This document shows positions 30,711 through 35,381 of a DNA stretch of 64,000 bases, in pieces. The DNA lies in contig NZ_CP009048.1 of NCBI RefSeq assembly GCF_000746525.1, positions 471,001-535,000 on the forward strand, written 5' to 3'. The translations under genes and the position numbers were made by a program. The notes beneath the pieces are model-generated. The model had not been told where the DNA came from. It did no database searches and saw nothing but the letters and a program-made list of their open reading frames with translations. This stretch comes from Pseudomonas alkylphenolica. Its GTDB lineage: Bacteria > Pseudomonadota > Gammaproteobacteria > Pseudomonadales > Pseudomonadaceae. Each line of letters starts with the position of its first letter. Position 1 is the stretch's first letter.

Positions 30711-30821
30711 CTTATTAGTCCGGGCTTCCTGCGTGCCATCTGCCCGCGTGTGGGGCCGCACGCCTCTCGATGGTCTGAAAGTCGGGTGGGAACTGACCAT
30801 TACTGGCCAGTTCCCCCCTAA

Positions 30822-30855
30822 GAACCGTACGTGCGCCTTTCAGCGCATACGGCTC
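30822..30855 (-). ncRNA. Group II intron domain V catalytic hairpin
   Basis: The minus-strand sequence starts GAGCCGTATGCGC, has the GAAA loop, and ends GCACGTACGGTTC. This 34-nt hairpin carries the catalytic CGC-type triad region and conserved two-base bulge of bacterial group II introns. It overlaps the last two bases of the maturase stop codon and is followed by domain VI, as expected. Confidence 0.92.
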
Positions 30856-32563
30856 AAGCCTTTACGAAGCTCCCAGAGGGAGCCGGTTTGCTCACGTGCA
30901 GACCACGCGTGTGGAGCTGGTTGTGACAGTTGGGGTGCAAGAGTACCCGATTGCCTAGTTCATCGCCACCGCCCAAAGAGCGGTGATTGATGTGGTGGTC
31001 GTGCCACCCTGTTTCCCTAGTGATCGGTTGCCCACATAGCTGACATAGACCGCTTTGGCTGGCGAATAGAGTGCCGATTTGTTTCCGGTATTTCAGCTGT
31101 TTCAGCATCCGGTCGGTCCTCAGTTTCTCGCCTATAGCTTCCATGGCCGGATCGTAGGGATTGTAATCCCCACTCACCTTCTTATGTCGCTCGATCGGTG
31201 TACTCGCAAGCGTGTACAGCTCGACCTCCCGTTTTGTTCCAGCTTCATCAGTCACCGTGGTGGCGAACACCCAGTTCCTATCGCCTAGGGATCGGAAATA
31301 TTTCTTCCTTACCCAATCGAGGGTCTTGTTTGGGTGTCGCCTTTTCGCCCAACGCCAGAGTTTGATAAACACCCTGTAATCCATTCGGCTATACGCCTGC
31401 TTCGCGACTACTGGTTGGTGGTACAGCGCCCAGCCTCTCAGTTTTAGGTTGAGCATTCGGATCAGATCCTCCTGCTTGGCCGTCTTGTGAGAGTCGATCG
31501 CCTCTCTGATCTTGCTGTAGAACGCCTTGACGTTCTTCTTGCTCGGCTTGATCAGTAACGTTCCATCGTATTTCCGGAAATTCCATCCAAGAAAGTCGAA
31601 GCCTCCGTCGATGTGAACGATCCGCGTCTTTTTGAGTGAAAGCCGCAGTCCGCGCGTTGCGAGGAACTGCTCTACCCAAGGTTTTACTTCGTTTTCCAGC
31701 ACCTCCGGGGAGGTGCCGGTGATTACGAAGTCGTCGGCGTATCGCACCACGTTCACCTTCAGCTTCTTCGCCCTTGACATCCCCAAGTGTTCCTTGAGGA
31801 GTGTTTCCAGACCATCCAGTGCCAGATTTGCCAGCGTCGGGGAGATAATTCCCCCCTGCGGCGTGCCTGCGTCCGTTGCGTGTAACTGCCCCTTGTGAAT
31901 GACTCCAGCCTTTAACCACTGCCGAAGCATCCGTGTATCCGTGGGGGCGTTCCTTAATAGCCATTCGTGGTTGATGTTGTCGAAGAATCCCTCGATGTCC
32001 GCGTCCAATACCCAGCAAGCCGAGGCCCGCTTGGATAGGCACAAGAACAACTGCGCCATCGCATCCGCCGTACAGCGTTCGATCCTGAAGCCGTAGCTGT
32101 TCGGATCTCCTCGGGTTTCGGCGATGGGAGATAGGGCCAGCATATACAGCGCTTGCATGGCCCTATCCGTCATGGTCGGTATGCCCAAAGGGCGTTCCCG
32201 TCCATCCGATTTCGGGATGTAGACACGCCGTAATGGCCGAGCCTTGTATCCCCGCGTCTTCAATTGATCAACCGCATTCCATTTTGCGTTGGGTGTATCC
32301 CAGAGTTGCCTATCGACTCCCGCCGTGCGGCTTCCCTGATTTTCCGTGACTCTCCGTACAGCCAAGTATCTGGCCGACTTTGAGCGGGTAAGCATCCGTT
32401 GCAGGGACTTAACCTTGCGCCATTTGCTTTCCCGACAAGCCTTCGCAATTCGCAGCTGCATTTCCCGAACGTTCCGCTGAACTCGACGCCAATCGACGTC
32501 GTGCCACTGTTGCGGCTCGCTGGAAAGCGCAGACTCCGAGCATTGATGCTTGAGCGCTATCAT
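30854..32563 (-). CDS. ltrA: Group II intron reverse transcriptase/maturase with HNH endonuclease
   Basis: A 569-residue intron-encoded protein. The RT fingers/palm contain RRVYIPKSDGRERPLGIPT, GFRIERCTADAM, the DADIEGFFDNI motif, GTPQGGIISPTLANL and the catalytic YADD at residues 275-278. A maturase X domain (about 360-480) and a C-terminal HNH nuclease (CQLCGQPITRETGWHDHHIN, then LLHPNCH, about 510-558) follow. The HNH type and RT sequence suggest the chloroplast-like intron class. All motifs are intact, so splicing and retrohoming are plausible. The ATG at 32563 lies in domain IV, and the stop touches domain V. Confidence 0.95.
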   Translation of the reverse strand: MIALKHQCSESALSSEPQQWHDVDWRRVQRNVREMQLRIAKACRESKWRKVKSLQRMLTRSKSARYLAVRRVTENQGSRTAGVDRQLWDTPNAKWNAVDQLKTRGYKARPLRRVYIPKSDGRERPLGIPTMTDRAMQALYMLALSPIAETRGDPNSYGFRIERCTADAMAQLFLCLSKRASACWVLDADIEGFFDNINHEWLLRNAPTDTRMLRQWLKAGVIHKGQLHATDAGTPQGGIISPTLANLALDGLETLLKEHLGMSRAKKLKVNVVRYADDFVITGTSPEVLENEVKPWVEQFLATRGLRLSLKKTRIVHIDGGFDFLGWNFRKYDGTLLIKPSKKNVKAFYSKIREAIDSHKTAKQEDLIRMLNLKLRGWALYHQPVVAKQAYSRMDYRVFIKLWRWAKRRHPNKTLDWVRKKYFRSLGDRNWVFATTVTDEAGTKREVELYTLASTPIERHKKVSGDYNPYDPAMEAIGEKLRTDRMLKQLKYRKQIGTLFASQSGLCQLCGQPITRETGWHDHHINHRSLGGGDELGNRVLLHPNCHNQLHTRGLHVSKPAPSGSFVKA

Positions 32564-33627
32564 GCTGCTTTCCTCTCATTGTTGAATCCACCCATGGAGA
32601 GGAGTGCACGTACTACTACCCCTGGTGGGGTCGAGTGCACCCCGCCAGGGCGGAAAAGCAAGGGTCATGGACCCAAGGGTTAATGAGACAGCTTCCTGTC
32701 AGTGTAATTGCGACGAAAGACCACGCAGAAGTCTGCCCGGTTTCCCGTGAGGTGATGTTTCAACCTCTATCCAGACTATTACGGTCTGGCATTCGCTTTT
32801 TCTGCGATCCCATACCCGCATAACTAACAGTGTTCCTTACGGTCCACCTGCCCTAAGGGCAGTTATACGGGCTTACCACGTTCCCTGTCTGTCACACGAC
32901 TGGGTTAGGCCCCGCCTTTTCACCGGAGGTTATGATGGCGACGTACCCCCACATCCCACAGGGATATCCAACCTCGTACCATTTTGGTTCATGCCTAACA
33001 GCAGTTTTGGCATGGTTATCCTTACGGTGTTTATCAGCGATTCACTTGTGTTGGCCGTACCAGCCAGCCTAGCGCCTCAACCCGGTACTGCTCCGAGTCT
33101 CTGCATTCCTCCTCGCGGAAGAGATGCACCCATATGGGGGCTACGTTGTCTGACGGGCTTCACACACCACCGTTGCCAGTGATGCATGCCGTCGTAGGCT
33201 ACCGTTGGTCGCACAACGAGTCCGCTACTGCTCCATAGAGGCGGCAGTTGGACAATGACAGACAGAGCTTTCGCTCATGTCTCCTGGAAGACCGAACCAA
33301 GACAGCAAGATAGCCGTTGGTCGGAAAGTAGATGCCTCCTGATTCAAAATGAGCAGGAGGAGACCCCTGCGGGGGTCGAATCCCCCGCTTGGGTTGGTAT
33401 GTAGAGGGCTCTCCAAAACCGGATGCTGCTGGTTTTGCGGTCGTGCTACCGAGAGCTGAACGACCTTGGGTTTTGCCATCCGCCGCAGCGGTAAGTTCTT
33501 GAAGGCAATGAACTTCTGGGCGGTTTTGTTTCTTGGGGATGGATACCCAAGTATTCGATTTCCTCCCGGAAATCCCATCAAGCTGACCATACAGCTTGGT
33601 GGAGGAGACACGCTACGCGTGTCGCAC
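32564..33627 (-). ncRNA. Group II intron 5' ribozyme domains (I-III) plus an extra structured segment
   Basis: There is no gene here. Read on the minus strand, 33214-32564 has the expected structure of domains I-III: GCCCGTATAAC pairs with GTTATGCGGG, CCAGAC pairs with GTCTGG, and there is a possible exon-binding region near 32945-32985. The part 33215-33627 holds further perfect stems: GACACGC/GCGTGTC (33607-33623), GCGGGGG/CCCCCGC (33369-33388), CCTCCTG/CAGGAGG (33335-33360) and a GAGC-GAAA-GCTC tetraloop hairpin (33260-33282). Whether this segment is part of domain I or a separate insertion is open. Confidence 0.7.
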
Positions 33628-33658
33628 AAGATGCTGGATAATAAAGCATGACCCGCTT

Positions 33659-33674
33659 GACGGCTAGGGCCGTC
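33659..33674 (+). promoter_or_regulatory. Hairpin next to the amgK ribosome-binding site
   Basis: GACGGC-TAGG-GCCGTC (33659-33674) forms a perfect six-pair stem whose last base begins the GGAG ribosome site (33674-33677), eleven bases before the amgK ATG. Folding would hold the site close to a stem and might affect initiation. This is a structural observation only. Confidence 0.4.
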
Positions 33675-33687
33675 GGAGACCCTTGTA

Positions 33688-35381
<1,694 letters not shown>

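Follow-up and report, generated by a model that had tools for sequence, protein, structure and literature searches.

The window analysed here, a 64,000-nt stretch of the Pseudomonas alkylphenolica genome, carries a mobile group II intron in the 5' leader of the essential gene lptD. With a probability that we put at roughly 0.85, this intron belongs to a lineage specialised for promoters. Its two guides, EBS2 and EBS1, are complementary to promoter DNA and cover, on the coding strand, the latter half of the -10 box and everything from there to the insertion junction, and most of its relatives are found in sense at an equal distance behind -10 boxes of core genes. The lineage uses about 30 genes and tRNAs, lptD among them. 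The earlier note on this DNA had suggested that the insertion couples LPS transport to a mobile element; the intron does lie in the lptD leader, in sense, but the arrangement is not special to LPS transport.

Identity and ends of the intron

The intron spans 2847 bp (30781-33627, minus strand) and encodes an intact RT/maturase/HNH protein. The covariance-model check proposed in the earlier note recovered both expected parts of the ribozyme above the gathering scores of Rfam, namely the conserved stretch group-II-D1D4-7 (RF02012; 33073-33220, minus strand, 122.8 bits) and domains V and VI (Intron_gpII, RF00029; 30781-30857, minus strand, 64.8 bits). The termini are GTGCG at the 5' side (GTGCGAC, 33627-33621, minus strand) and AC at the 3' side (CCCGAC, 30786-30781, minus strand), in agreement with the 5' GUGYG and 3' AY ends of mobile group II introns, and the A at 30787 (minus strand) is probably the branch point. 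The protein ORF (30854-32563, minus strand), whose end overlaps the start of domain V, runs uninterrupted for 569 aa, contains RVT_N, RVT_1, GIIM (maturase X) and HNH domains (Pfam) and scores above the cut-off of TIGR04416 (group_II_RT_mat, NCBIfam). The RT, maturase X and endonuclease domains that characterise the protein of a mobile group II intron are therefore all intact. Among solved structures, its closest sequence relative was PDB 6me0 (E 4.8e-181), which we take to be the TeI4h RNP. The ORF was also open, at 561-569 aa, in all 22 intron relatives checked; an in-protein stop was seen in a few relatives (L145, L194).

Two other copies in the 5.76 Mb host genome were 100% identical over exactly 2847 bp and sat in unrelated surroundings, which fixes the ends of the window intron independently. 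Three identical copies imply recent movement. A fourth copy, located before mrcA (L004), was 86% identical. Terminator-like stems numbered seven in the scanned region, compared to 3.2 in shuffles, and the scan placed sense-strand stems within the intron at 33370-33353 and 32674-32662; given these, read-through from the intron into lptD may be incomplete.

The lptD site and its probable promoter

lptD (LPS assembly outer membrane protein, PF04453; 30710 to 27900, minus strand) is encoded on the same strand as the intron, and the part of its leader that forms the 3' exon comprises 70 bases (30711-30780, minus strand). An intron with maturase and domains V and VI, in sense and 70 bases before lptD, had been described in the earlier note, and this was confirmed to the base. 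The divergent neighbour amgK (33688-34713, plus strand, start at 33688) belongs to the APH family, with AmgK as its best NCBIfam match, below cut-off.

To compare the site with intron-less relatives, as had also been proposed, the lptD start was searched in 199 genomes of the genus, and the 30 best matches, i.e. the host's own copy and 29 relatives, were examined. All 29 relatives lacked the intron. In the nearest relative found (L032, 96% identical over the lptD start), the empty site corresponded to the two flanks of the window intron put end to end; since this closest relative has an empty site, the insertion at lptD is probably recent. A probable lptD -10 box, TATTAT (33638-33643, minus strand), lies 10 nt before the intron, as judged from the geometry of the lineage and from the empty-site relatives, where the hexamer was TATTAT in 28/29 and TATCAT in 1/29. 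The stretch that begins with CTAGCC, includes the -10 box and ends at the lptD ATG was nearly invariant in the 29 relatives, in which identity over the 481-bp query fell as low as 80%. L052 and L040 differ from the others upstream of CTAGCC and keep the remainder, and this point of divergence may mark the edge of the promoter. The leader at 30711-30780 was itself nearly invariant in the 29 aligned relatives, and the adjoining gene was not. A search for a stable or unusual fold in this leader returned a z of 0.49, no better than shuffles.

Taken on these sequence data, the native lptD promoter is very likely the TTTATTATCC stretch, which would leave only about 4-6 nt of 5' exon in the RNA, and transcription probably starts within IBS1 (33628-33633). 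A promoter at this stretch and a very short 5' exon had been raised in the earlier note, and both are supported by the same geometry at 28/37 sites of the lineage. The accompanying suggestion that lptD may depend on a promoter inside the intron was dropped, as the promoter scan listed no sense promoter-like site there, although this silence weighs little, given that a -35 box is a requirement of the scan and that the proposed lptD promoter goes unlisted too. Its one match in the region lay inside lptD, at chance level.

Occurrence of the lineage and its insertion sites

A DNA search of 398 genomes of the genus gave a match of any length in 71, and short partial matches were largely left out of placement. 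This was complemented by a protein-alignment scan of named genomes, from which the best 80 of 184 relatives were taken; seven of these 80 loci had no GTGCGACACG 5' end and were left out (L132, L141, L155, L160 and the stop-codon loci L162-L164). In total, 99 insertions with a GTGCGAC 5' end were placed in Gamma- and Betaproteobacteria, 80 of them with distinct 60-nt flanks and some present twice (same genome in two copies). Grouping by downstream gene, performed by eye, gave 37 sites. L119 and L129 have different downstream genes and were kept separate in this count, but were joined in the 36 groups used for the guide scan, the pair tables and the -35 test.

Exactly the lptD 5' flank was shared by 19/99 placed insertions (some species counted twice, L112 included), and the identity of these introns to the window intron went down to about 73%. 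In a protein tree (FastTree, 121 rows) the lptD-site rows fell in several places; the fewest changes required for this site were four, without L112 and with L078 outside the tree, and the change count over all site labels (56) was uninformative. L112 (Pseudomonas corrugata DSM 7228) has an intron with the lptD 5' flank and the tig 3' flank, and such mixed flanks would reflect either a misassembly or two intron copies that recombined. Pseudomonas sp. QTF5 harboured four diverged introns (L100, L103, L116, L117), each before another gene (lptD, tig, ahcY and the MDTMTEN gene).

Position relative to the -10 box

A hexamer was scored as a -10 box if it departed from TATAAT at no more than one position and ended 10-12 nt upstream of the junction. 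Such a box was found at 28/37 distinct sites, where 0.11 would be expected from the background of 14 hits in 14,134 upstream positions, and its distance was 10 nt at 21 sites, 11 nt at six and 12 nt at one. Counted per locus, this equated to 76/99. Exact TATAAT was present in nine groups, always at 10 or 11 nt and nowhere else within 90 nt. The nine sites without the box included six pre-gene sites with weaker hexamers (two mismatches at 10 nt before the MDTMTEN gene, before coaBC and in L122 and L128; weaker still in L130 and L135), the rpmG sites, and L001 and L002. The latter are two recent copies in the host genome with two mismatches at 10 nt, one inside a dioxygenase gene in sense and the other antisense in a DUF6708-like gene. 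Inclusion of L162-L164, the stop-codon loci with another 5' end, would change the count to 28/39. Hexamers at -35 were not clearly better than random in the 36 groups (mean of 3.22 mismatches versus 3.33; two or fewer mismatches in 9/36 versus 4.8 expected), and -35 boxes were not enriched. A conserved -35 box was rejected on these counts.

A further draw covered 299 genomes from the family of the genome that holds L150, and 16 loci with at least 60% protein identity were examined. Seven of them had the GTGCGACACG 5' end, four with flanks already known and three with new ones (L195, L198, L199). All three new flanks carried the -10 box at 10-12 nt, one being the tRNA-Leu site again. Six of the 16 belonged to a sister group with the 5' end GTGCGACTCG, and three were without a recognisable 5' end.

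Orientation and downstream genes

By our own reading of the flanks, the intron preceded a gene or tRNA in sense orientation at 34/37 sites, and all 28 sites with a -10 box were in sense upstream of a gene. The lptD site combines both features by which we propose to define the lineage: a -10 box at a fixed distance and a position in sense before a gene. Only 9/72 -10-like hexamers in the window, examined as a control with ORF-based gene calls, were in sense upstream of a gene. This control bears on the strongest alternative, namely that the lineage reads TATAAT through protein contact and EBS2 without any link to transcription, promoters being hit because they contain this hexamer. Contacts of related intron-encoded proteins (IEPs) with the distal 5' exon would allow for such recognition, those described in PMC2882425 being C-18, C-17, A-15 and A-14 for EcI5 and A-15 and C-16 for TeI4h. 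However, this reading would need strong selection on top to turn 9/72 into 28/28, and we consider it a serious contender with slightly less than an even chance.

The genes downstream (names from NCBIfam or Pfam except where stated) included lptD, mrcA, tig, def (a 70-aa piece), coaBC, guaB, pyrG, rpsO, yjbE, zapD, ahcY (two loci), fimV, ribF, hflK, secB, ubiH, an FKBP, rnt, ilvB, hisZ, ndk, lptA and a dynamin-like GTPase, as well as amgK and bamE (both below cut-off). ARAGORN identified tRNA-Met, tRNA-Leu and tRNA-Tyr, and argF, a copper chaperone, a GDT1-like protein and an FmdB-like protein were named by eye only. The MDTMTEN gene had no Pfam or NCBIfam family match. In three loci an Rfam riboswitch lay at or near the 3' junction: an SAH riboswitch started directly at the intron 3' end in L134 and with a spacing of 41 nt in L116, and a Mn riboswitch started at the intron 3' end in L129 (Rfam intervals overlap the intron end by a few bases). 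These riboswitches place the intron at the 5' end of the transcript, which is evidence independent of the box. No Rfam riboswitch match was found in L119, before the yjbE gene.

That an ordinary single intron fell by chance into the lptD leader, with lptD dependent on splicing or on an intron promoter, is highly improbable. The shared sense of intron and gene and the conserved leader would suit it, but 19 loci, judged by their 5' flank, have divergent introns at exactly this lptD position, the lineage occupies some 30 other genes, the riboswitch positions and the -10 box count disfavour it, and so, weakly, does the absence of a listed sense promoter-like site in the intron.

Guides and their targets

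All alignment columns in the first 760 nt of the intron were scanned for pairing with the exon, with no location assumed. One column behaved as EBS1, forming 5.84 of 6 pairs with its own IBS1 (-6 to -1) versus 2.66 with those of other sites (31/36 representatives), and another as EBS2, forming 4.69 pairs with its own -14 to -9 versus 3.26 with others, in one fixed register (35/36). In the window intron, EBS2 (GGATAA, 33016-33021, minus strand) lies 64 nt upstream of EBS1 (GGGATG, 32952-32957, minus strand). EBS2 forms 6/6 pairs with IBS2 (TTATCC, 5' exon -14 to -9, 33636-33641, minus strand), which overlaps the -10 box, and EBS1 forms 6/6, two of them G-T, with IBS1 (CATCTT, 5' exon -6 to -1, 33628-33633, minus strand). 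Both exon pairings of a mobile group II intron, EBS1-IBS1 and EBS2-IBS2, are therefore present.

Across the representatives EBS2 was mostly NNATTR (A in 34, T in 29, T in 22 and G or A in 35 of 36), a consensus that complements the -10 box in its final four positions. The best EBS2 register followed the box where this stood at 11 or 12 nt, with 26/27 in agreement and tig as the exception. A free EBS search was rejected as proof of pairing because 20/108 wrong pairings in its control also reached 12/12, so that pair numbers did not discriminate; covariation rests on the fixed-column test.

These guides could in principle act alone, EBS/IBS pairing directing insertion genome-wide and selection then keeping harmless promoter-proximal copies. 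The close match of guides to targets fits this account, as do the rpmG sites, which lie after a stop codon and are also harmless spots, and two of the three identical host-genome copies, which lie inside or antisense to genes, demonstrate that a guide match by itself can suffice. However, harmlessness alone would scatter insertions across the entire 5' leader, and 27/37 had the -10 box at 10 or 11 nt. T at -16 (27/37) and A at -15 (29/37) were also frequent, despite being unpaired by EBS2 in the common register. Furthermore, the motif TTATCCNNCRTCTY occurs in eleven places in the host genome, of which ten were inspected: three are occupied by the intron, six are in identical repeat copies and one further place is also unoccupied. 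The six empty repeat copies (L221, L222, L224, L225, L226, L228) have identical flanks with G at -15, which would fit a protein contact there, within a small sample that represents one repeated sequence. Guidance by pairing alone is thus rather unlikely.

Deviating groups and distant relatives

The sister group (L189, L191, L200, L201, L202, L212) failed the 10-12 nt test in 6/6 loci. By eye, -10-like hexamers were found 9-10 nt away, with one mismatch in two loci and two in four. Its 5' exons end in ATG, so that the intron follows the start codon; insertion occurs right after this ATG, which itself lies about 6 nt behind the -10-like hexamer. In L191 and L212 the 3' exon continues the reading frame (by eye), as if these were leaderless genes.

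None of 13 more distant loci, 12 of them with a plausible 5' end, passed the -10 test, and six were in a tRNA-Gly gene. By eye, the anticodon stem of tRNA-Gly was interrupted in L169, L170, L182, L205, L206 (judged by its 3' flank only), L207, L208, L209 and L219, and a working tRNA would there need splicing. Other distant introns had a box at 10-11 nt (L015, L081) or an exact TATAAT at 9 nt (L184), and the coaBC site recurred in L082 and L084. Single -10 matches can be chance, as L013 and L018 interrupt an apparent transposase gene and yet have GATAAT at 12 nt. In L097, L111, L136, L138 and L139, which are members of the lineage, and in L163, a relative, the intron immediately follows the stop codon of what looks by eye like rpmG; in L097 and L111 a terminator-like stretch follows the intron. 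Together with a groEL-like site (L011) and L012, L162 and L164 (genes by eye), these stop-codon introns share the IEP tree of the promoter introns and are partly nested among them. They likewise use non-coding spots of housekeeping operons, but insert behind a stop codon and not at a -10 box.

A model for insertion at promoters

For the promoter-specialised lineage we infer the following route. The RNP would recognise the -10 box, with EBS2 reading its last four bases and the protein perhaps its first two (-16 and -15), EBS1 would read the start region, and the RNP would reverse-splice at about +4 and copy itself in. Transcription from the host promoter would then place the intron at the beginning of the message. 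Should the RNA include no more than about 4-6 nt of 5' exon, EBS1 would serve both splicing and targeting and EBS2 DNA targeting only, IBS2 presumably staying untranscribed. As the lptD promoter, leader and ribosome-binding region are intact after insertion, unspliced, spliced or cleaved RNA could make LptD. Such harmlessness would make the site tolerable in an essential gene, and the site would secure the intron's own expression.

RNA polymerase may also act as the opener of the target. In an open promoter complex the non-template strand is already single-stranded from about -11 to +3. IBS2 and IBS1 together correspond to promoter positions about -10 to +4, and the invaded strand is the non-template strand. 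Related introns require the upstream contacts of their protein on double-stranded and not on single-stranded DNA, according to PMC2882425. Invasion of the open complex by the RNP is a tentative proposal, which we regard as plausible though short of probable.

Comparison with known target specificities

Three target specificities of bacterial group II introns are named in a 2015 review (PMC4424553), i.e. homing sites, terminators and attC sites. Like the present lineage, the group IIC (class C) introns covered there are specific for a signal of transcription and not for one particular gene. They insert after intrinsic terminators, whereas the signal here is the -10 box at the transcription start, and the window lineage differs further in its two long guides, EBS1 and EBS2, and its HNH domain. 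On the 5' exon side of the window intron (33628-33800, minus strand) no terminator-like stem of the kind that group IIC introns follow was listed. Specialised lineages of bacterial group II introns were reportedly treated by Michel and colleagues in 2007, which could bear on promoter targeting. Thermosynechococcus TeI4-type introns and EcI5 of Escherichia coli share EBS1 and EBS2 with the lineage and read their targets also by protein contacts near -15/-16, as the lineage may do, and they lie in mobile elements, intergenic sites or a tRNA gene; promoter specificity is not described for them in the part of PMC2882425 at hand. Within a limited literature search, promoter targeting by group II introns was likewise undescribed in the available parts of PMC4424553 and PMC2882425.

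If true, such a lock on the -10 box would represent a fourth target specificity and would explain how a selfish intron survives before essential genes. It would also offer a naturally evolved collection of promoter-complementary RNA guides and a retargetable tool for insertion at the starts of transcription, and the link between transcription initiation and retrotransposition would become testable.
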